From: Kalmusia sp. IMI 367209
Taxonomy: Eukaryota; Ascomycota; Dothideomycetes; Pleosporales; Didymosphaeriaceae
Assembly (NCBI GenBank): GCA_027946365.1
Contig: JAPEUQ010000004.1
Location: 62,001 to 126,000 of the forward strand
Reading direction: 5' to 3'
DNA: 64,000 nt
Of this stretch, positions 21,369 through 41,021 are shown piece by piece. Position numbers and translations under genes: made by a program. Within the stretch, counting starts at the first letter, position 1, and each line of letters begins with the position of its first letter. The notes under the pieces are model-generated. The model worked only from the letters and a program-made list of their open reading frames with translations. It searched no databases and had not been told where the DNA came from.

Positions 21369-23861
21369 TCATTTCAGCGCGAATATGTGCGGTTCACGAC
21401 CCTGCTGAATTTGCTCTTCAAAATACTCGCCATTCATGGCTCCCAGGACATAACATTCACCGACGAGCTCAAATTCGGGAGAATTGTTCACGTTTTGAAT
21501 TGGTCGCAGGAGATATGGTACACTCGCACCTTCGAGGATCGTGATGACGTCACCTGTCTGCGCTGTCCAAGGGCAAAGACCATACATGCCATTCTTTGCT
21601 ACGAGCAGGAACGGATCTAGACATTTAGGTATATGATACGTCCGCTGGCGGATGGCAGTTTGGTCAACATTCTGAAGAGATACTGGATGGACCGCGACAA
21701 TAGGATCTGTACGAAACTCTGCGTATCCCCAATGAGCACTCAAATGATCCATGAGCCCATTTATATCCCACTGTATGTCTGATTCCACTCTTGGGATATC
21801 TACCGGTTTGTTGGTTCCCCTGGATTTCCAGAACAAATGCTTATTGCATGGATCGAACAGCCTTTCAAAAGCTGCTAGCAGAGCCTTCGCGATCGGTCGC
21901 ATTTTCTCGGTGTAAGGGATATCTAGAGTGAGGTAAGTGATCTCCTGTATTTCGCTAACCGCGAATCCTTGGAGCCACAGCGTCTCTAGATTGTCGTCAC
22001 GGCTACGTTCTAGAAGACCTAGATTTGGCTTTGTATTTTTTGACGCTGAGAAGCGAAATCGGCAATCGAGAGTTGTTTGCGCTGTCTTTGTGTTGCCTTC
22101 GCTTCCGATGACCCATGTAGGCCACACCAGTGTTTCACGCACGATGTCATCTGTCTGTACCCAGGACCGTCCCGGTAATCCATGGATTGTAGATAATATG
22201 GAGAGAGATTGATATTCACGAATCCACCAGCGAGTGAAATCGGCGAAGACCCTTGCTACCGATTTGTTGTAGGACGGTCGAATTTGTGAGCATGTATATT
22301 TGTTCACATCGACATCTTGACAAAAAGAATATAATGAGAATAGCTTGTCGCGTGGATCTGTTGCTTTCAACTCTAATCCGTTGAGGAACACGTCGAGGAT
22401 TGGAAACTGGCGATATCGGCCAAGTATATGCGCATGCGCTTGCATTGTGTCCGTGATGGGCTCCGATCTGAGATGATTCCAAATAAGAGGCATCATGACC
22501 AGTGGTTCGAGATGAACTTGCTGCTTCTGAAATTCATCAGAACGCAACCAAGAGCTTACGATGACGAGTTCGTCCCAGGGGATAACCTCTTGCCCGGAAT
22601 AGACCCTAGCAGTTCGAGCTCGAAGAGCTTCTTGCAATACCCAAACTCGTCCAAACCACGGATTTGCAAAGACAGTCGACATCAATCTCGAAAGCTGCTC
22701 ATTGTTGATGCCCCCAGCATAATTCGATATTTCGAAAGTGAAGAAGCGTCTTCGGTGCTCGTGAAAGATCTCGTACATGGCTTTGTAAGACGAGCTGTTT
22801 TGTTTCTCGATGATGTCATCGACCGAAGCTAGGGGTAATGTGTGAGGCGTTCCATCGCATTTGCAATCTTCACCTCCAAGGCAGACGCGACTGTTGAAGT
22901 TGTGAATGTCACGCACGATACGTAATGCCTGATGTACACCTCGGTCTCCTTCACCAAGCCAGATGTGGACTATACTTGCTTCGGAATAAATGTCTGCCAT
23001 AAGATTGACCTGTTGTGCCCGCTCGTCTTTATTGCTTTGATTGATGCAGATTTGATCAATCCATAAGGTCAAGGGTTGCTCTTGGTTGCGTATGCGACGA
23101 AGAAAATCTCTCACTGACGGAGAGACATGGAAGGGTGCCTTAGGTCCACCAATGTCAGAAGCATCCATACCTATCTCCACATTACTCGTAAGGTCACCCC
23201 AACAGTAAGACAGTGCATCATAACTGTCTTCAATTCCAAGATTCATCCTCTCGATAGAGCACTCAACAGGGTCGTCAAGATTTCCGGGGTGTAGTTTGAG
23301 GATTCTAATCTCCTTCGTGTCTTTATTTAAAGCATTTGAGTAAAACTCGTCATTGAAAGACTGTAAGGAGTTGGCGGATGGTTCAATCTTGACCGCTTCA
23401 TATTCTATCTTGATGCGCGCCTGGCGCACAAAATTTACCCAGCCTGGGTAATAAGCTCTTGGAATGAGTTGGATAATATCCTTAGCCTGGAGAGCATCGC
23501 GCCACTCTGACTGCTGCCAAACCGTACTATAATCCTTAAACTCCGGCTCACCGCGACGATTGGTAAAAACGGAAAAGGAGCGTAGTTCATTGCGGCCTGC
23601 TGGCCGCTTAACGCTTACATCAATCGTGGTGTACGATGGCCCAGATTTGCTATCGGACCATCCTAGTCCTTATTAGTTCTTTGCACGTAATAAGAATGTG
23701 ACAAAATAACGATGCATACCTTGGTCTCGGCTAATTGCTGAGAATTCGACTTGTGTCACTGATCTCACATCGTCAGGTAGTGTCAGCTGCAAGTAGGGCT
23801 TATCAGGGCAATGCTGATGAACCGAAACCAAAGCCTCACGCTCAACTACATGTTGTTTCAT
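21369..23861 (-). CDS. HET-domain protein with N-terminal extension
   Basis: Two exons, 23720-23861 and 21369-23662, 57-nt intron (811 aa). The first about 125 residues form a separate module: VTQVEFSAISRDQGWSDSKS, then a stretch ending AKDIIQLIPRAYYPGWVNFV, a pattern seen ahead of fungal HET domains. The HET domain follows at about residues 195-350: YDALSYCWGDLTSN, LTLWIDQICINQSNKDERAQQ (quoted in part), IYSEASIVHIWLGEGD, then FANPWFGRVWVLQEALRA. Later ATDPRDKLFSLYSF is another classic HET block. The C-terminal half ends with a small fold-like segment (VGECYVLGAMNGEYFEE) common in this subfamily. It looks intact. It lies 4 kb from the RiPP cluster, without obvious functional link. Confidence 0.92.
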
Positions 23862-25926: not shown

Positions 25927-26712
25927 CTAAGGGAGCCGCTTCATGTATCTGATAACATAATGACCCCATTTTTCTTTCGTCACACCCTCGCCTGTACCTT
26001 CCAGCTTCTTCGCCCATTTCTCCCCAGGGGCTGTGGGGGCATACTCGTCTAATTCAATATCAAGCTCCTTCACTATATCAAATCCAAATTTCGCGTACGC
26101 TTTCCATGCTTGGTCTGATGAGTGTACCCAGGTGAAGATATTGAGGCGGTCAGCTATAGCGTTACCATACTCGATGAGCGCGCTGCCCACGCCATGAGAT
26201 TGATGCGATGGATCAACAATAAGACCGATGAAGAACATGCACGAAGTGCCCGGAGGCATCAGCTCAGCCATCATGTTTTTCATGTCATCATCTTCGATTT
26301 CGTGGAGCCGATCGATTCCTTTTTTCTTTCCATCCTCTTTTCTTTGAATTTCTTCTTTCACCGCATTATCTTCATTCTGATCTTCATGTTCTTCTTCAGT
26401 AGGAGGTGGTTCATCGCTCGGTCCCTTCCGTGGGATCTTTTCCTCGTCGATGCCTCTAAAACCCCAACCTGCATGCCCGACAATATTCCCCGCTTCATCG
26501 ACGGCCTTTACATAGATGTAAGTCTTCCTATGGAGTGTCGCAAGAAAGCCATCTCGAGACACATCAAACATGTCAAATGGTTTCCCACCAAGTTGTTTGA
26601 CAATGGTATGCCGGTCAGTTGAGAAAGCCGCAGCGGTGATGCGAGCGCAAGCATCTATGTCGGCATATTGAAGGGCCTGGATGGTGACTGTGAGTTGTAT
26701 ATCTTCTGACAT
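25927..26712 (-). CDS. GNAT-family N-acetyltransferase
   Basis: Single exon, 261 aa. The acetyl-CoA binding region is clear: FFIGLIVDPSHQSHGVGSAL, where QSHGVG is the Q/RxxGxG/A motif, followed by IEYGNAIADRLNIFTWVHSS and AWKAYAKFGFDIV, the end of the fold. The N-terminal strand/helix (ADIDACARITAAAF) also fits. A charged, Glu/Lys-rich insertion (about residues 95-150) splits the domain, as in many fungal small-molecule GNATs. The substrate cannot be predicted. It is the nearest intact gene to the left edge of the RiPP cluster and could be part of it (peptide or amine acetylation), but that is inference from position only. Confidence 0.88.
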   Translation of the reverse strand: MSEDIQLTVTIQALQYADIDACARITAAAFSTDRHTIVKQLGGKPFDMFDVSRDGFLATLHRKTYIYVKAVDEAGNIVGHAGWGFRGIDEEKIPRKGPSDEPPPTEEEHEDQNEDNAVKEEIQRKEDGKKKGIDRLHEIEDDDMKNMMAELMPPGTSCMFFIGLIVDPSHQSHGVGSALIEYGNAIADRLNIFTWVHSSDQAWKAYAKFGFDIVKELDIELDEYAPTAPGEKWAKKLEGTGEGVTKEKWGHYVIRYMKRLP

Positions 26713-27936
26713 GATTTTGAAGGCTTCAGAGATTCGGACGTTGTCTACCGTTGTACTCTCCGTCGCTCACTGGAAGATAGTTGCGTCGTGTTTGGCAAGG
26801 AGATCAGGTACTCGATATCTCTTTCTGCAATGAATTGCGACACATAACTGGCGCGCAACAGTCAGTCTAGCCAACAGCCAAGGTTTTCCACCTGCGGAGT
26901 TCAATCCGGCTCTACCCAATACACTTTTCGTGAGTGCTTCGGGCTTCGTTTGTTGCACCGCTAACGAAGATGCTGTAGTTTCCGAGAGGGAGGCTCTCAA
27001 TTGAGTGTTGTTCTAGAACTGCTAGAAAGACCCACAGCTTCCATGCGCAAATCTGACGGAACAGCAAATGACGTACTTCCTTTTTGGTAAAGGATTGACC
27101 GGCTGGGCTCATGACATAGATAGACCTGACTTCGGATAGAAAGAAGAGTGCCGATATGCACTATGCAGGGTCCGAAACATGCAAGAAAGACTGCCGGGGC
27201 CGCTGAGGGGCGAAACGATGTGTGATACTCGTCAGGCTTTTGCCTCAAAAGGCTAGAGAAGCGGGATAAGGCATTTTTAAAGCTGAGGATTCACGAGACC
27301 AACTATAGCATCGCTGATTGGTTGATATCAGCGCTAACTACATTGGGCTGGTGATAAGCTTTGACGGGGTATTTATGCTTACCTTGCATATGTTCTCTTA
27401 ACAAGGGTATCACTTTGCTGGTACGTTTTCGACCATTCGCTAATCCGTATTAAACATCCTAGTACCGTGCAGCACGAGGCCCACACTGCCTTTCTGTGAC
27501 CACCACGACCTTCCGCAGAACATACGCCTACACCAACTCTTGGCTGTTCGGAACTCAGAACACCTCCACGGATCCCTTTTTTTTCGGGCTTTTGTGTCAG
27601 ATAGTTGGCAGAGATACCTAAAGGTGCGAGGTGCGGTACCCATGGTGGCTGTACAATCAGGATTGAGGCCTATGGAACTTTAGTCATGTCACACTGTGCA
27701 GATGAACTCCGACGCTTTATGGTGTGTGGAGTTGCAGTTTGGGTGAGAATCAATGGATAGTTTTACACGCCCCAGCATCTTGACTGCCAGCAGTCACCCA
27801 ATTTTCGAACTGGGTCTCCCACATTGTAAGAAAATCATTACAAGTATTGCTTGCTTCTTTTCGCCATATCTCCAGAAACCTATCGTTTGCTTCAACAATA
27901 CACAGTAGCCTGTAAGATATTTTGCAACGCTACGCA
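26713..27936. other. Intergenic region at left edge of RiPP cluster
   Basis: No supported gene; small minus-strand frames between 26767 and 27643 have no motifs. The 3' part is the upstream region of the first UstYa-like gene. Confidence 0.4.
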
Positions 27937-28620
27937 ATGGTAGTCTTGAAAAGCTTTGAAACCGGCTACGACCGTCTCTGCGAAACCGAAACGTCTACAC
28001 ATGACCGCCCCTTTCCTTCGAAGCATCCTTGGACCATTTTTTTCAATATACTCGGAAAGATTTCAATTGCTATTTTCTGTAGCATTGGCGTTCTTGCGGT
28101 TATCCGCCTACTCATTGCTACCCATGCTTCAAAATCAAATGCAATTGTCAGCTGTAACTGCGGATATTCGATTCAGGAAGCTATCGCCAACGGCTGCAAG
28201 TACGATCCTATGGCAACATCATGGCTCCCCGCAGCTTGCCGTGATGACGAGCTCATCGACCAGTTCAACCACGCCGGTCCGGGGCCCAACGGCGAATGGA
28301 GCTATTACAAGACACAGGCTGGCAATGATACATATACTTTAGAGGAGGTAGCAATGTTAGCTGAGAAAACGGGTGACGAGGCTTCATTCTGGACGACTCA
28401 TGAATGGCATATCGGCCATTGCCTGTTCTACTGGAGGAAGGAGTCTAGGGCTAGGGTTAGCGGTAAAGTTGCCATCGAGACGAGTTTTACGGGCGACTAT
28501 CATGTCAGTCATTGTGAGGAAGTGTTGAAGAGTTGTCGGCCACTAGATGAGATCAATACTAGATCTAGTGCCGGGCTAAACTCAGATTTGAACGATGACG
28601 GTACCGTGGCAGAAGGGTAA
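27937..28620 (+). CDS. UstYa/DUF3328-like membrane protein 1
   Basis: Single exon, 227 aa from the ATG at 27937. It has a short cytosolic N-terminus, one TM helix at about residues 33-60, then a lumenal part with a Cys-rich block (CNCGYSIQEAIANGCKYD, residues 73-90; WLPAACRDDEL, 96-106) and two HxxHC motifs: HIGHC (158-162) and HVSHC (189-193). Paired HxxHC motifs after a single TM are the mark of UstYa-like proteins, which in ustiloxin, asperipin and related pathways carry out oxidative cyclisation of Kex2-released core peptides. The CG..EA..GC block puts it in a divergent branch shared with the genes at 28911 and 32848. It opens the cluster and is transcribed toward 28911. Catalysis is inferred from family and context. 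Confidence 0.82.
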   Translation: MVVLKSFETGYDRLCETETSTHDRPFPSKHPWTIFFNILGKISIAIFCSIGVLAVIRLLIATHASKSNAIVSCNCGYSIQEAIANGCKYDPMATSWLPAACRDDELIDQFNHAGPGPNGEWSYYKTQAGNDTYTLEEVAMLAEKTGDEASFWTTHEWHIGHCLFYWRKESRARVSGKVAIETSFTGDYHVSHCEEVLKSCRPLDEINTRSSAGLNSDLNDDGTVAEG

Positions 28621-28910: not shown

Positions 28911-29621
28911 CTAACAATTTGGGAACGAAACAGCAATAGCTGTCATAACTTTATTTAACGGGATCTCAGGCGACATAAAAGTCCTGTTCATTGCATCAAC
29001 ACAATGCCAGGTATGATGCCGTTCAATCAATACCTGATCCATCCGTCTCCCTTTCTCCATCTGTTTGTGCATCAACTTCCAAGCATACATGCAGTGAGAA
29101 ACATGGTACCGCCGATCCGCCCAAACAAAATAACTTGTATATTCGCTAATCGCATCCACATCCTTCAGAGGCACGAGTTGATGTGTCTCAGGGTATCCAG
29201 CACAGTCATCGCCGCAGATAAAATCCGAGGTGTTGTGGTAGAAAGGCCAAGGTCCTTGGGCCATGAACTCGGCATTTAACTCATCGTCGTAACACTCTTC
29301 TGGGAGCCAGCATGCGGTGCCGAGGTCGAATTTACAGCCTGCTGCTCGGGCCGCCTCAGGTGTCTGGCCACAAGGATCTTTTCGAAGTTCTAGTGAAGGA
29401 TAGCGGACAGAAGTCTGGAAGTTTTCGAGACGACGTAAGAGCACCAAAAGAGCTGCCAATATTCCAATCCCGACCACAAGTAGTGAAGCTTGTACAGCAA
29501 CCGAAAACCAGTTCTTCTTCACGGGTCTATAGATTGAGGATAAGGATAGTCGAAGCAGACTCTTCTTTTCATCTTGTTCCGAGAGATCCAGATCGTGAAA
29601 CTCGCTACGTGATGGTGCCAT
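28911..29621 (-). CDS. UstYa/DUF3328-like membrane protein 2
   Basis: Single exon, 236 aa. TM helix at about residues 39-63, then CGQTPEAARAAGCKFD (84-99) and WLPEECYDDEL (105-115), as in the neighbours at 27937 and 32848. Two HxxHC motifs: HVSHC (173-177), followed by MYAWKLMHKQ, and HTWHC (203-207). It is convergent with 27937. The sequence differs from its two relatives by an extra pair of cysteines (136 and 140) and lacks the GPGP stretch. Probable lumenal tailoring oxidase or partner for the peptide from 35977. A half-site AGTCCGT lies at 29936-29942, about 315 bp upstream. Confidence 0.82.
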   Translation of the reverse strand: MAPSRSEFHDLDLSEQDEKKSLLRLSLSSIYRPVKKNWFSVAVQASLLVVGIGILAALLVLLRRLENFQTSVRYPSLELRKDPCGQTPEAARAAGCKFDLGTACWLPEECYDDELNAEFMAQGPWPFYHNTSDFICGDDCAGYPETHQLVPLKDVDAISEYTSYFVWADRRYHVSHCMYAWKLMHKQMEKGRRMDQVLIERHHTWHCVDAMNRTFMSPEIPLNKVMTAIAVSFPNC

Positions 29622-30735: not shown

Positions 30736-32347
30736 ATGCACTCGCGGTTTCCCAAAGGTTCAGGTGATTTAGGAAAGAAGCAGATGCTATATATGACTTG
30801 CAGTTTTGGAGGGTAACGTTCCCAATATCCGGATGCATACATACCAGCTAACAATTTCGCAGGTTGCAGGTTGTTTGGTCAGTAGTATTTTCAAACGGCG
30901 CAGTGCGTATTAAGATCCTCTACAATTTACAATTACTTACGACAATTATAGCCTTTCTTGGTTTCCCTGGGTCTTTCCCAATCATGGACTCCATTAGTAT
31001 GGCTTGCTGCACCTCTTTGTGGTCTGATCGTTCAGCCTATCATTGGCTTTTATAGTGATCATTCCCAAAGCCCATGGGGTCGTCGCCGTCCTTTCACGTT
31101 GATGGGAGCTATCGGTACTGCAATCCTTCTAATAATATTGTCTCGGGTTGAAAATCTCGTCAGGCTATTCTCTGAATGCGCTGGGGCTTGTTCGCCAATC
31201 GGTCCACGATATGTTCAGAACCTCAGTATCGCAGCGGCAATTATTGTCGCATACTGCCTCAATGTCTTTGTGGCGACCTTACAAGTCTCACTGCGTACAC
31301 TCATTGTGGAGTATTTCCCTATCCATCAGCAAGCGCAGGCCAGCGCCTGGGCAAGCTACATGACCGGCTTCGGCAACATCCTAGGCTATGTAGCAGGATC
31401 GTTGTCACTGTCTGATTTCTTCGCAACCCCTTCCATCACTCAATTTCAATGGTTGACTGCGTGGGCATCGGTCGTACTTCTTCTGACAACCGGTTTGACT
31501 TGCTGGGCTATAGATGAGAAGATAGATACTGAACTAGGTCTCACTCGCCTCACCGAAGCACGCCCATCAATTCTCATATCTCTAGTCGCTACTTGGCGAA
31601 ATATGCCAAACAGTATCAAGAAAGTCTGCTATGTACAGTTTTGGTCCTGGATGGCTTGGTTTCCGTTCTTGTTCTACTCCACTACGTACGTTATACTGCC
31701 ATCTTCAAATTGTTCCTAACATATGTAGATACGTCGCCGAGCTTTACACGCAATCTATCTACAAAGCTGCACCTAGCGTGAGTGATGACGCCAGAATCAT
31801 TGTTATCAAGAAAGCAATGCATGTTGGTACTTCGGGAAATCTAGCCTTCGCTATCGTTGCACTGACTACCAATATCCTCCTCCAACACTTCGTGGAAGCA
31901 GCGCAAATGTCGAAAGAAACCTTTCTGAATCGATCTTTAAATATTCAACGATTATGGCTCCTATCGCATATCTTTTTTGCTGGTCTCATGTTAGCAACGC
32001 AATTTGTTACTACCAGCTCGGCCGGTACAATTGTTGTTGCTTGCGCTGGCTTGTCATGGGCATTGACGGGGTGGGCACCATACACTATCATTGGTTCCGA
32101 ACTCGCAGACATTGTAGATAGTACAGAAGAGCTAGAAAAGGTTAATCACCGGGGCACAGCGGTGGCATCTATTATGGGCCTTCACAACGCCTTCATGTCT
32201 GCACCTCAGATCCTGGCTGCCATACTATGCAGTATTATACTAGCTCTGTCAAACGCATTCGAGAGCACGTGGGGTTTACAATGGGTATTCTTGCTAGGTT
32301 TCTTCACGTCATTGGCAGCTGCATATACGGCGAGGGATCTCAAATGA
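30736..32347 (+). CDS. MFS transporter, sucrose/alpha-glucoside (GPH-like) type
   Basis: Four exons: 30736-30812, 30863-30902, 30952-31685, 31729-32347 (489 aa), with introns of 50, 49 and 43 nt. Multiple hydrophobic helices. Signatures: LYMTCSFGGLQVVWS at the N-terminus, LAAPLCGLIVQPIIGFYSDH, then PWGRRRPFTLMG in the helix 2-3 loop, the typical GRRRPF motif of the sucrose-transporter-like branch. TARDLK is the C-terminus. By family it would move a sugar or glucoside by proton symport. Relatives are frequent in fungal secondary-metabolite clusters, and here it sits between four UstYa-like genes, so export or uptake of the cluster peptide or a sugar is a reasonable guess. The start gives MHSRFPKG; upstream frames differ. 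Confidence 0.88.
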
Positions 32348-32847: not shown

Positions 32848-33585
32848 TTACCAAGTCAGCTTTGCACGCTTATCGTGGTGATCATCCTCCGGCACAAAGG
32901 AACTTTTGTTCAATCCAACCCCAGACATGACAAGCTCATTCCGATCTCCCTTCATGATAATCTCCTCGCAATGCACAATATGCGTATACATATCACGTTG
33001 ATCCATATAAGCGATGCCACGCTCCTGCTTGCGCCAATAGTACGTGCAATGAGCAACGTGCCAAAGCCACTCGGTGAAGAATGGCTTGCCTGTATCCGCC
33101 GAATGGGCGAGATCGGCAACAGTGATTTCGTGTTTGCGGTGGGGATCAGACCAGTATAGCCATCGCCCACCTGGGCCGGGTCCGATGGTGTCGAATTGGG
33201 CGGCAAGCTCGTCGTCACGGCATTCTGCACGAAGCCAGGCCGCTGCCAAAGTGTCGTACTTGCAACCTAAGGTAAGAGCTTCGGCGATGCTGGCACCGCA
33301 GTCACATGATATCTCCTTGTGGGCTTCAATCGTGTCGTGAGCCTGGAAGCCGAGGCTGATAATACCCCAGATAGCAAAACCGATAAGAATGATGTTTCGG
33401 ACGAAAGGCAGTGCTCGACGCCATTTTGGAGGTTGCGGCTTTAGCAGTGCATTTACCTGATGAAGGAGATTGTCTGAGGAAGCATTCTCCTCATCGTCAT
33501 CAGGACTGTGTGATGTCAGAGAATGAATTGCTTTGTCTGCAGCAATAACCTACACTCTATTGTAAACAGACTTCTCTGTCTTCAT
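32848..33585 (-). CDS. UstYa/DUF3328-like membrane protein 3
   Basis: Two exons, 33554-33585 and 32848-33505 (229 aa). The 48-nt intron (GTAGGT donor at 33553, CTGAC branch, CACAG acceptor) matters: read straight through, an in-frame TAG at 33550-33552 would make the gene look broken. An upstream in-frame ATG at 33609 is an alternative start. TM helix at about 44-66, then CDCGASIAEALTLGCKYD (78-95), WLRAECRDDEL (101-111), HVAHC (160-164) with the following TYYWRK, and HIVHC (186-190). Closest in pattern to the gene at 27937 (shared GPGPxGxW). It is divergent from 34654 across a 1.07-kb region. A role in tailoring the cluster peptide is inferred from motif and position. Confidence 0.8.
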
Positions 33586-34653: not shown

Positions 34654-35508
34654 ATGCACGAGCCACTACCAGAGCACGAAGTACCTTTCATCTCCAAAGA
34701 CCATGAGATCATGTTAGCGTCATACCAAGCTCGCCACAACGAGCGGACCTCAAGACGTTCGATGTTCTTAGTCGCCTTGATCAGTGCGCTTGTCTCGATC
34801 ACTGCAACTATAGGACTACACAGCTTTCTCACTACCGTCACCAGAAGATATAACCATCCAACACGACATGACCTACTCCCAGAATTATCAATCCCGCCCC
34901 TTGGAGATGTTCTTCGAACCTACATACCGGAGCCGGCGTACGTGGATAAGAACATGAGTGACGCCCACGATGCATGGATGGCGTTGTTCCCTCGTAAGAT
35001 TTCTTTATCTATAAAGACTCATCAGTGCTGACACAGTGAAAGAGGGTATGGGATACGTTTCCATGGACAAGATCAAAGCGGCAGGAGAAATACCGAAACT
35101 AATTAACGATATGAGTAACGACGGATCCGGACGGTTTTGTGTTGCTGGTTTCCACCAGCTACATTGCCTGGTAAGTCGAACGAAGATTGGTGCAACAGGG
35201 CAGCTTATCCATGACAGTATTTAATGTATGCCGATTTTCGTCGCGCGCTGAACGGAGAGATCACAAAGCCTGAAATGCATGTTTGGCACTGTTATGACTA
35301 TCTTCGTGAAAGCATCATCTGTTCTGCAGATAGCGCATTGGAGCCTTTTAGGTCGCCATTTGATGGTGGAACTGGCGGTGATGGAATAGATGGATTTGGT
35401 AGCATGCACCAATGTCGCGACTTCAAGCAGCTCTTCGACTGGAGTGAGAAATTTCGGTATAGCGATGGACGCGATGCTGAGAAATTTGAAGGGAAGCTTG
35501 AAAATTAA
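34654..35508 (+). CDS. UstYa (DUF3328) family protein 4, canonical type
   Basis: Three exons: 34654-34993, 35037-35170, 35218-35508 (254 aa). A cytosolic N-terminus is followed by one TM helix at about residues 36-58, then a region with DAHDAWMALFPLKEGMGYVS, and the two diagnostic motifs: FHQLHCL (HQLHC 153-157) and HVWHCYDYLRESIICSAD (HVWHC 179-183). The intron positions next to HQLHCL are common in this family. It ends with FGSMHQCRDF, matching the usual ...HxCRDF end. UstYa proteins are membrane-bound oxidases that form ether or C-C links or macrocycles on RiPP cores. It is convergent with the precursor gene at 35977, 468 bp away, the closest pairing in the cluster. Confidence 0.93.
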
Positions 35509-35976: not shown

Positions 35977-36620
35977 CTACTGTTCGTCCTCATCGCCAAG
36001 GTATTTGATACCTGGGTAGATGTTGGTGCGCTTCGCGACAGCCTCCTCGTCCTCATCACCAAGGTACTTAATACCAGGGTAGATGTTGGTGCGCTTCTCG
36101 ACCTCACCCTCATCTCCAAGGTATTTGATGCCCGGGTAAATGTTAGTGCGCTTCTCAACAGCATCCTCGTCTCCGAGGTACTTGATTCCCGGATAGATGT
36201 TGGTGCGCTTCTCAACGTCATCGTCATCGCCAAGGTACTTGATGCCAGGGTAGATGTTCGTACGCTTCTCCACGGCATCTTCGTCACCAAGGTACTTGAT
36301 ACCAGGGTATATGTTGGTACGTTTCTCGACTGAATCCTCATCTCCAAGGTACTTGATACCCGGATAGATGTTGGTACGCTTGCTGAGCTCATCCTCATCG
36401 CCGAGGTACTTGATGCCCGGGTAAATGTTCGTGCGCTTCTCAACAGCATCTTCGTCACCAAGATACTTAATACCAGGATAGATGTTCGTACGCTTGCTCA
36501 GTTCCTCGTCCTCGTCACCAAGGTATTTGATGCCAGGGTAGATATTGGTCCTCTTGGCAACGGTGTCGTCCTCATCGCCCAAGTACTTAATACCAGGGTA
36601 GATGTTAGTGGGCTCACGAG
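35977..36620 (-). repeat. Tandem repeat array coding 11 core-peptide units
   Basis: DNA units of about 51-66 nt repeat in frame inside the precursor gene. The units are not identical at DNA level: third positions differ freely between copies (TAC/TAT, CTT/TTG/CTC-type changes, GGC/GGT), while the coded core never changes. Confidence 0.95.
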
Positions 36621-36711
36621 CCTGAACATCGGTGTGGCCGCTATGGGGGAAAGGAGCAGCCGAAGCGAAAGCCACGAAGGCAGAGATGATAAGGGTGTTC
36701 GAGAGAACCAT
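35977..36711 (-). CDS. RiPP precursor: secreted, 11-repeat, Kex2-processed peptide
   Basis: Single exon, 244 aa. Signal peptide MVLSNTLIISAFVAFASA, a short leader (about residues 19-34), then 11 tandem units. Each unit reads TNIYPGIKYLG, then a short acidic linker (DED or DDD or DEG, plus AV, EV, SV, EELS, DTVA or similar) ending in EKR, SKR or AKR. Ten Lys-Arg sites separate the units; the last unit ends DEDEQ. The stretch NIYPGIKYLGD is identical in all 11 copies, whereas the linkers vary in length and sequence. This is the architecture of dikaritin/UstA-type and Epichloe gigA-type precursors: ER entry, Kex2 cutting, then cyclisation by UstYa-like enzymes. The core probably lies in IYPGIKYLG, with two Tyr, one Lys and one Pro available for cross-links. 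Exact ends of the mature peptide are unknown. A TATA-like TATTTAA lies about 160 bp upstream (36869-36875). Confidence 0.95.
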   Translation of the reverse strand: MVLSNTLIISAFVAFASAAPFPHSGHTDVQAREPTNIYPGIKYLGDEDDTVAKRTNIYPGIKYLGDEDEELSKRTNIYPGIKYLGDEDAVEKRTNIYPGIKYLGDEDELSKRTNIYPGIKYLGDEDSVEKRTNIYPGIKYLGDEDAVEKRTNIYPGIKYLGDDDDVEKRTNIYPGIKYLGDEDAVEKRTNIYPGIKYLGDEGEVEKRTNIYPGIKYLGDEDEEAVAKRTNIYPGIKYLGDEDEQ

Positions 36712-38569: not shown

Positions 38570-39559
38570 ATGTTGCCACTCTTTGGTACAGAGTACTCCA
38601 CAGTGGAGACATCAGATGATGCTTCTGTCTCTCCTCGAAGCTCCACTGACGAAGTCAACCCTGAGAAGGGCCTGTTGACCAACGAGATCAAGAGCAAGTG
38701 GTCGCTCAATAGGAGATTACTGGCACGAAGGGCTGCACTCGCCGTAGTCGTCTCCCTTCTTATCGGTAGCCACGCTATATTGTTCGCACTAGGCCGCAAG
38801 ACAGTTGATTTAGACAAGAAGTGTCTGCACCACACTTCTGCATACTGTAAGACCTCACTCTCTATTCCCAACACCATCAAGATCTTGGACTAACAATCTC
38901 CAGCACCCCTCCTTGATGTGATGGAACCGGGCTACAAAATGGTCCAATTCAACGGCACACTCGGCTACCCTTCCGAATATACCGGCGACCCAAGTCCAGA
39001 GCTTGATGCTGTCTGGGACAAATGGGGCTACGTAAAGTATGCTAGCATCCCTGACGAGATTTTCAACAAACTTCCAGGCGACTGGGAGGGTGCTGCAAAA
39101 CTGACGCCCGAGTATGGCGGCGGCTATATTGGGTTCCTCGAGTTCAGTCACCACATGCACTGTCTGAACATGCTGCGACAAGGCATTCACCAGGACTACT
39201 ACAACGACCCCAAGCATCCGGAGCGTATGGCGCCTGTGTTCACTGACAGGCCATTTACGGTCAAGATTCACATGCGTAAGTTCAACGTGATAGTAGATAG
39301 ATTATTCGCTGATTATACTGCAGAACACTGCATTGAAATTCTGAGGCAAAATATTATGTGCAATGCGGACGTAGGCATTATTCCACACCAGTGGATTACG
39401 GCGACGCCGGATCCGTATGCTAACTTTAACACGTGGCATAAGTGCAGAGATTTGGACAGCGTGACGAAGTGGATTCATGAAAATGAGATTCCGGATACGC
39501 CTGATGGTAGCGATCTACCAATTCCGCTAGGCTCGCGGATCTTCGCGCAGCCGCCATGA
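38570..39559 (+). CDS. UstYa (DUF3328) family protein 5, canonical type
   Basis: Three exons: 38570-38846, 38904-39275, 39324-39559 (294 aa). TM helix at about residues 52-74. The lumenal part shows DAVWDKWGYVK and YIGFLEFSHHMHCLNMLRQ, with the first motif HHMHC at 175-179. The second motif, HMQHC (215-219), is completed across the last splice junction, followed by IEILRQNIMCNADVG, typical of the family. The C-terminus has the NFNTWHKCRDLDSV segment that marks canonical UstYa proteins. It is the longest of the six because of extra residues around 185-212 (YYNDPKHPERM and on). It runs in the same direction as 40067. Confidence 0.93.
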
Positions 39560-40066
39560 GAGAATCGGTAGATAGAGTATCATTTCTTTTTAGCTAGATT
39601 TAGGCACCGGAGAGGTAGTGACATTATATGAATTCAATGTCGAACATAATCTGCAAAATTTTGATCTCCAAGCGATCACGAGGTCGATGTTTTGAGGGGC
39701 GTAGTCTGTAGCAGAATCCACGAAAAAATATCAGTAAAATTCAAAACACCACAATGTCCATACTCAAACTTCCCAAAATGCTACCTGTGGTCGGAATCAG
39801 ACTCCTACGGAATTCGATCTCTCAACAGCTGTTTTTCTAGATGTGAAAGATCGTCGCCTCTAGATCGCTCTGTGGCAGAAGCGGTTGCTCAAAGAAGGAA
39901 CCGGCCATTAACCATCGTCGTACGATGTTCCAATTCACGTGCTGTATCAAAATTCGGAGGCCGATGTCGATCCTCCACAAAGAAGCATATAAGGAAGTCT
40001 CCCCCGGATCTCTTGTAGACGCCAAGTATCAGTCGTTCTCCAGAAATTCAACTCCTGGACACGCAC
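39560..40066. other. Spacer between UstYa-like 5 and 6
   Basis: A 507-bp tandem gap with the promoter of the next gene. No clear CGGACT half-site is seen here. Confidence 0.45.
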
Positions 40067-41021
40067 ATGGATTACCCAGAATTCACTATGCCTCAATCAT
40101 CCTACCACGACCTATCCTCCACGGAGACGGTAAACCTGATAGAGAAGCAAAGTCCGGATGTACCCCAGACGGAACCCCGGCGCAGGCGTCTTTGCTTCGA
40201 TTGGCGCTGGCTTGTCCACGCGATCCTCCTCACTATCTCACTTACTTCCTTCCTTGCTGCGCTTTCACTCTCACATTCTGAAAAGCCGAAGTGCGACGAG
40301 TATCCCGCGACGACGTACTTTGATCGACATGTCGATAATTCGTGGGAAATCCGGAGCTTTACGGATAACGGGGACTCGCCGTTCCGAGGACCACCGAGTC
40401 CCAGTGTCGACAGAGCATGGTTGAAGATTCACGACGGCAAGTCCTGGAAGAACTCATAGTAGTTCAAGGATGGCGCTAAGTAAAGCAGTAACGGAGCATT
40501 CAATCCCTCTAGAGTGGGTACGAGGAGTTGGAGCAGAGGACAAGTCAGTCAAAGTGCCGAAGAGACTGGGCGGAGGGTACATGGCGAATCTTGCCGTCTT
40601 CCACCAACTACACTGTGTGGTAAGAAATCCATCTTTCGATAGCAGTTGCCGGATACTAACGAGTGCCGCTAGAATATCTTGTGGCAACATACATACCTAG
40701 ACTACTACAAGCCGCGTGAAAAGATCCTGCAAGAGGGCGACGAGAAGGTCCACCAGCACTTAGGTAAGCATAACAGTCCCTTGATTGTCATCGGGCAAGG
40801 CAATTTATGCAATGTTAGATCACTGCGCCGATATCGTACGCCAGGCCCTCATGTGCCATGCCGATACAAGCACTCTTACCTACGACTGGCCGGAAGACAG
40901 GACCGAAGAATTCCTAAAGGAGAACCACACGCTGCCCAGAACGTGCCGAAAGTGGGACAAGATCATGGATTGGGCTAGGGATCGTGAGTTGGTACAGTAT
41001 AGTGCGGATGCGATGCAATAG
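40067..41021 (+). CDS. UstYa (DUF3328) family protein 6, frame interrupted
   Basis: The 5' part (40067-40459) encodes a short N-terminus, a TM helix at about residues 46-68 and a normal lumenal start (DNGDSPFRGPPSPSVDRAW), but it runs into TAG TAG at 40457-40462. The 3' part continues in another phase: WVRGVGAEDKSVKVP, FHQLHCV, a 53-nt intron (40620-40672), NILWQHTYLDYYKP, a 55-nt intron (40764-40818) that completes HLDHCADIVRQALMCHAD, and the C-terminal CRKWDKIMDWARDRE; stop at 41019-41021. Both HxxHC motifs are therefore present. I find no ordinary GT-AG intron that joins the two parts between about 40400 and 40480. So this is either a recent frameshift pseudogene, a small sequence error, or an unusual intron. 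Confidence 0.8.

Follow-up and report, generated by a model that had tools for sequence, protein, structure and literature searches.

The locus and its precursor gene

Eight genes were resolved at 27.9-41.0 kb of the window, by which we mean the whole stretch of 64,000 nucleotides analysed here (C25:62001-126000). They span about 13 kb and include a repeat precursor, three UstYa genes (E, G and H), three genes of a second family (A, B and D) and a transporter-like gene (C).

The precursor gene (35977..36711, minus strand) is a single exon with one open frame of 244 codons plus a stop, the stop being inside these coordinates. Frame 1 of the plus strand is interrupted by an internal stop in this region, and the minus strand is a correction to the earlier sequence-only reading. 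The N-terminus of the 244-residue protein is hydrophobic, with a peak 9-residue Kyte-Doolittle mean of 2.82 at residues 7-15. ASA|AP stands at the end of this stretch, which resembles a signal peptide in its hydropathy and by eye, as was proposed before, and the probable signal peptide was placed on the same basis at residues 1-18 (36658..36711, minus strand). A short pro-region, APFPHSGHTDVQAREP (36610..36657, minus strand), stands ahead of unit 1, and a single Arg followed by Glu-Pro was found upstream of the first core.

The remainder of the protein is composed of 11 repeat units (35980..36609, minus strand), each starting with TNIYPGIKYLG and continuing into a variable acidic spacer. Lys-Arg closes ten of the 11 units, and the last one finishes with DEDEQ and the stop. 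The minus-strand translation thus bears out the 11 tandem units, ten with a closing Lys-Arg, of the sequence-only reading. The shared IYPGIKYLG that it had named is present in all units, but the invariant block has 11 residues and not nine. Tyr4 and Tyr9 of the core are kept in 11 of 11 copies. The spacers differ both in letters and in length: they are DEDDTVAKR, DEDEELSKR, DEDAVEKR, DEDELSKR, DEDSVEKR and DEDAVEKR in units 1 to 6, and DDDDVEKR, DEDAVEKR, DEGEVEKR, DEDEEAVAKR and DEDEQ in units 7 to 11. Tandem Repeats Finder reported the array at 35987-36614 with periods of 57 and 171 (scores 572 and 649). The protein therefore has the features of a Kex2-processed repeat protein (KEP), with the signal peptide judged by hydropathy and eye.

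At the DNA level, no two of the 11 core copies are alike, with pairwise identities that average 0.836 and go down to 0.727. Counted against the core consensus they show 40 differences, 39 of them at third codon positions and all 40 silent. Under a simple single-substitution null, the chance that the 18 distinct changes are all silent is about 7e-11. Because all copies are distinct and every change is silent, the core is under strong selection. It means that the array has had time to diverge while the peptide was kept constant.

Alternatively, the protein might have a structural or effector role after secretion, as a repetitive protein that works without cleavage or in the form of plain fragments. 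Many secreted proteins are built of tandem repeats. Besides, dikaritin precursors were often taken for ordinary secreted proteins (PMC9632046), so the reverse mistake can be made as well. (Here and below, PMC9632046, PMC7329392, PMC6514808, PMC6339444 and PMC12048977 are cited from the available parts of their texts.) A plain structural repeat is hard to match with invariant cores set between spacers which vary in length and sequence, or with Lys-Arg at the end of ten of 11 units, and we regard this explanation as very improbable.

We compared the precursor with about 5.8 billion proteins, and no relative at E <= 0.001 was found among the 7998 best word-sharing candidates that were scored. A search of the 42.8 Mb genome with the precursor gave one match, the precursor itself. 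Being missing among the proteins searched, it is probably without annotation. TNIYPGIKYLG and the sub-strings tried had no occurrence in the literature texts searched. The sequence-only reading did not recognise the core as a published one, and these protein and literature searches, without match to the core, agree with it.

Genes around the precursor

Three UstYa genes, all on the plus strand, score above the PF11807 cut-off of 25 bits and lie less than 5 kb from the precursor, and each carries two HxxHC motifs. Gene E (34654..35508; exons 34654-34993, 35037-35170 and 35218-35508) has HQLHC and HVWHC, with a PF11807 score of 88.7 bits. Gene G (38570..39559; exons 38570-38846, 38904-39275 and 39324-39559) has HHMHC and HMQHC; its score of 153.4 bits was obtained on a model retaining the second intron (39276-39323), which was removed afterwards, and both motifs are in the intron-corrected form. 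Gene H (40067..41021; exons 40067-40436, 40489-40619, 40673-40763 and 40819-41021), whose first intron was taken as GC-AG, has HQLHC and HLDHC and scored 160.6 bits. The plan shared with UstA, phomopsin and Epichloe gigA precursors, suggested earlier from the precursor alone, can be seen in the sequence and is strengthened by these three adjoining genes.

The second family is located to the left of gene E. Gene A (27937..28620, plus strand) encodes a protein with one membrane helix in its structural model, a Cys-rich block, and the motifs HIGHC and HVSHC. Gene B (28911..29621, minus strand; HVSHC and HTWHC) and gene D (32848..33549, minus strand; HVAHC and HIVHC) belong to the same family, the 5' end or first exon of D being uncertain. 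Between B and D lies gene C (30870..32347, plus strand), an MFS sugar-transporter-like gene with exons seen at 30870-30902, 30952-31685 and 31729-32347 and further 5' exons unplaced. It reached 28.4 bits with MFS_2 (cut-off 27) and 32.6 bits with MFS_1, below the cut-off of 33.4. Neither the second, poorly recognised oxidase-like family nor the neighbour genes were mentioned in the sequence-only reading.

Other genes of the window were also noticed. A GNAT acetyltransferase gene (25927-26766, minus strand; 33.5 bits, cut-off 20.7) adjoins gene A. GNAT genes flank a DUF3328 gene in the Clan R2 clusters of lichens (PMC12048977), and on this ground the GNAT gene of the window could belong to the precursor cluster. 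To the left of the cluster is a HET-domain (heterokaryon incompatibility) gene (21372-23669, minus strand; 104.8 bits). At 58.5-63.4 kb on the minus strand, the ORFs, read by eye, resemble a fungal phytochrome that includes histidine kinase and response regulator parts.

Another explanation is that the precursor yields a linear, pheromone-like signalling peptide processed by Kex2, and that the adjoining oxidase genes act on something else. Precursors of alpha-pheromones share the same plan, and only a minority of KEPs adjoin a DUF3328 gene (1758 of 7878; PMC7329392). The Glu-Pro before unit 1 also resembles the Ste13 signature, XA or XP after a Kex2 site, and Ste13 was not predicted, in the available text, to process precursors of the ustiloxin/phomopsin type (PMC6339444). 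However, six double-HxxHC genes surround the precursor here, and DUF3328 neighbours were counted for 0 of 227 putative yeast alpha-factor KEPs and only 3 of 216 putative fungal pheromones (PMC7329392). The Pleosporales pheromone motif PYG[L/M]P[I/V]G (PMC6339444) is, by eye, absent from the precursor. So we consider a pheromone-like peptide improbable.

As judged from the sequence, with a probability of about 85%, the precursor gene belongs to a dikaritin-type (UstYa/DUF3328-dependent) fungal RiPP cluster. That the peptide would be modified, and in which manner, is suggested by analogy.

A second double-HxxHC family

Proteins A, B and D had no Pfam family at cut-off and no PF11807 match at E <= 1. 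Protein A shares 34% identity with D and 26% with B. Common to the three are a hydrophobic stretch, conserved Cys and His residues, and two HxxHC motifs. They show the HxxHC(x)nHxxHC pattern together with one membrane helix, which the structural model shows for A and which in B and D is a hydrophobic stretch judged by eye. The Cys-rich block of the A family has the consensus CxCG, GCKYD and WLPxxCRDDEL.

The protein collection contains 49 relatives of A (E <= 0.001). Some come from metagenomes and others from named ascomycetes, which include Periconia, Aspergillus, Colletotrichum, Cladobotryum and Annulohypoxylon. Both HxxHC motifs were present in 44 of the 49; one protein had a single motif, and the four with none were short. 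No description of the family was found in the literature searched by motif and family names.

The relationship with UstYa was analysed by comparison of profiles. With hhalign, A against three UstYa profiles gave single-comparison E-values of 8.8e-4 (probability 23%), 3.4e-4 (38%) and 1.3e-5 (81%), and both HxxHC motifs were in register in all three alignments. Column-shuffled decoys were made for the first and the third profile, 100 for each, of which five gave no result each time; none of the remaining 95 reached the real score in either case. PF11807 was weakly matched by five of 46 A-family members (best E 9.2e-4), and the HMM of the A family found one of 21 UstYa proteins. For A, AlphaFold2 produced a model (pLDDT 87.3) in which residues 31-67 form a helix and the lumenal domain is confident; there, the motifs lie in helices 155-175 and 187-198, after a strand. 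The order of elements was similar in the UstYa model, whose quality was poor (pLDDT 59.5). Taken at the level of sequence, the A family is likely a remote homologue of UstYa, which is short of proof. For A, B and D, the most probable origin is a diverged lineage within the HxxHC(x)nHxxHC copper-enzyme superfamily, with a role as additional oxidases or as partner subunits.

Even in a genuine RiPP cluster, A, B and D might be accessory proteins for copper delivery, electron transfer or chaperoning, which converged on pairs of HxxHC and are neither UstYa relatives nor oxidases. A hypothetical accessory protein supplying electrons or Cu(I) was proposed in PMC12435403. The extra conserved Cys-rich block, and the lack of PF11807 matches noted above, would fit such a role. 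On the other side, the register of both motifs and the failure of shuffled decoys to reach the score speak for homology, and the distance between the motifs is similar (25-32 residues in the 44 A-type proteins and 34-40 in the 13 of 21 UstYa matches with both motifs). We consider convergence less likely than a divergent branch.

Association with repeat precursors in the genome

Genome searches with A (11 matches, E <= 1) and with B (nine matches, E <= 0.01) led to the same six places only. At all six, the window included, the nearest A-family member is 1.2-2.9 kb away from a repeat precursor and other members are at distances of up to 7.4 kb; UstYa matches adjoin every one of these places. The precursors outside the window are at C29:250727-251257, C4:1096311-1096697, C6:1156122-1156667, C26:1826171-1826488 and C27:539189-539989. 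Each has a signal-peptide-like start by eye. Their cores are unrelated, and are listed as AVLYVSSVLPK, PIGQFISIWYG, AVAVGPIIEEAGEGY, APTVDEGFSKIIY and VDQAFVNVAYFGLK. The C4 precursor has three repeats only, and the C27 precursor has mixed cleavage sites. An A-type gene within 3 kb of a repeat precursor at six of six places means that the family can help to find RiPP clusters.

For comparison, four further UstYa regions were inspected, in none of which an A-family member was found. Two of the four had a repeat ORF. One (C23:3917479-3918330) is of the DEDAAKYSKR type, with its commonest 5-mer present 20 times and 19 Lys/Arg-Arg sites; the other (C1:2995964-2996260) is of the ADDEVRNSWSAR type, repeated five times with no Lys-Arg. 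Such clusters thus do not need the A family. Genome-wide, PF11807 had 102 matches, 100 of them over the cut-off and many being single exons. It means that many further candidate peptide clusters may be present in this genome.

Other species gave signs of similar pairings. A-type and G-type proteins were on equal-sized contigs in four of the four species common to both match lists, namely Kalmusia sp. IMI 367209, Periconia macrospinosa, Aspergillus tanneri and Cladobotryum mycophilum, the last with the pair PT974_07855 (A-type) and PT974_07853 (G-type). For Aspergillus tanneri, another assembly yielded a further A-type protein, a closer one, on a short contig. Among the 49 relatives of A, gene model P0037 of Annulohypoxylon stygium was the sole one with such repeats: it runs from a KRTNSYIGYGSEGEYEAVN repeat precursor into an A-type protein, and is most likely two adjoining genes merged.

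In the public annotation of Kalmusia sp. IMI 367209, gene A corresponds to N0V90_004077 (identical at 197 of 197 aligned residues, with a 30-residue gap which is an intron of the public model). Model N0V90_004081 covers the first 70% of gene G with 100% identity and then continues into H, so that the two UstYa genes are merged (38570-41021). By these two protein matches, the DNA very probably comes from this isolate or a nearly identical one (Pleosporales, Didymosphaeriaceae). From N0V90_004081 and P0037, automatic annotation seems to mishandle such clusters.

Comparison with known systems

Ustiloxin (UstA with UstYa/UstYb) and phomopsin (PhomA) resemble the window in the signal peptide, the many cores between Lys-Arg sites, the acidic flanks and the Tyr in the core. 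Their core tetrapeptide is YxIx, whereas that of the window is YPGI within TNIYPGIKYLG. DUF3328 genes number two for ustiloxin and five for phomopsin (PMC7329392) and three in the window; with the three A-type proteins, which are extra relative to both systems, the window has six double-HxxHC proteins against the five DUF3328 genes of phomopsin. The ustiloxin and phomopsin clusters contain a tyrosinase and an S41 peptidase, whereas none of the 37 tyrosinase (PF00264) and eight S41 peptidase matches of the genome falls inside the window.

Asperipin-2a (AprA, AprY) is similar in having a UstYa enzyme and a transporter, no tyrosinase, and Tyr in the core FYYTGY (PMC6514808). It has a four-gene cluster with one UstYa and a reductase, whereas the window has three UstYa and three A-type genes, and no reductase was noticed among the window ORFs read. 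The epichloecyclins of Epichloe (GigA) share the signal peptide and Lys-Arg repeats, and their product has modified Tyr and Lys; GigA has four repeats against 11 here, and the likeness seen is one of plan (PMC6514808). By description, the nine dikaritin clusters of Venturia inaequalis also have a repeat precursor adjoining DUF3328 genes, and victorin of Cochliobolus victoriae is another dikaritin from the Dothideomycetes. No mention of an A-type family for the Venturia and victorin clusters was found in the available text (PMC9632046).

CctR, a copper-dependent hydroxylase of the DUF3328 family, is a membrane-anchored and lumen-facing dimer, in which HxxHC(x)nHxxHC binds two coppers per chain (PMC12435403). 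A, B and D are like it in the single membrane helix, the lumenal domain and the motif pair, but differ in sequence and have the Cys-rich block before the motifs, and CctR acts on a non-ribosomal peptide.

Proposed biosynthesis and significance

By analogy with these systems, the precursor would enter the secretory pathway, and Kex2 would cleave after each Lys-Arg and free the units in the Golgi. A Kex1-type carboxypeptidase would then remove the basic pair, so that as many as eleven acid-tailed TNIYPGIKYLG peptides could arise. The single Arg and Glu-Pro before unit 1 suggest trimming by a dipeptidyl aminopeptidase, which could expose the same Thr at this unit. Cyclic Tyr-linked peptides are the products of known Kex2-type precursors that adjoin DUF3328 genes, namely those of ustiloxin, phomopsin and asperipin-2a (PMC7329392, PMC6514808), and the DUF3328 enzymes ApnU and AprY were reported to be copper- and oxygen-dependent (PMC12435403). 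Likewise, E, G and H, as putative copper oxidases of the lumen, may act on the cores here, probably together with A, B and D, and join Tyr4, Tyr9 or both to a side chain nearby; the peptide TNIYPGIKYLGDEDAVE is a candidate oxidation substrate for A. The acidic tail would finally be cut off and the product exported.

We tentatively speculate further, at somewhat less than even odds, that A, B and D represent a second branch of HxxHC copper enzymes that is hardly seen by PF11807 mining and works specifically for Kex2-type RiPPs in several orders of ascomycetes, the orders being judged from the species names. The three proteins and the three UstYa enzymes would act on one core and might produce a multiply cross-linked peptide with a new ring type.

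The plan of the precursor itself is already familiar, since thousands of such precursors are known (7878 KEPs in 1461 genomes; PMC7329392). What is less expected is that UstYa genes are paired with a second double-HxxHC family, hardly recognised by Pfam, which tracks repeat precursors in one genome. TNIYPGIKYLG is a concrete new peptide target with predicted masses. The computed [M+H]+ is 1238.678 for the linear peptide, 1236.662 for minus 2 H and 1234.647 for minus 4 H, and for IYPGIKYLG it is 1021.572 (minus 2 H) and 1019.556 (minus 4 H). The results suggest that the double-HxxHC copper enzymes reach beyond DUF3328, and the A family could be relevant to the partner for electrons or copper that was postulated in the work on CctR.
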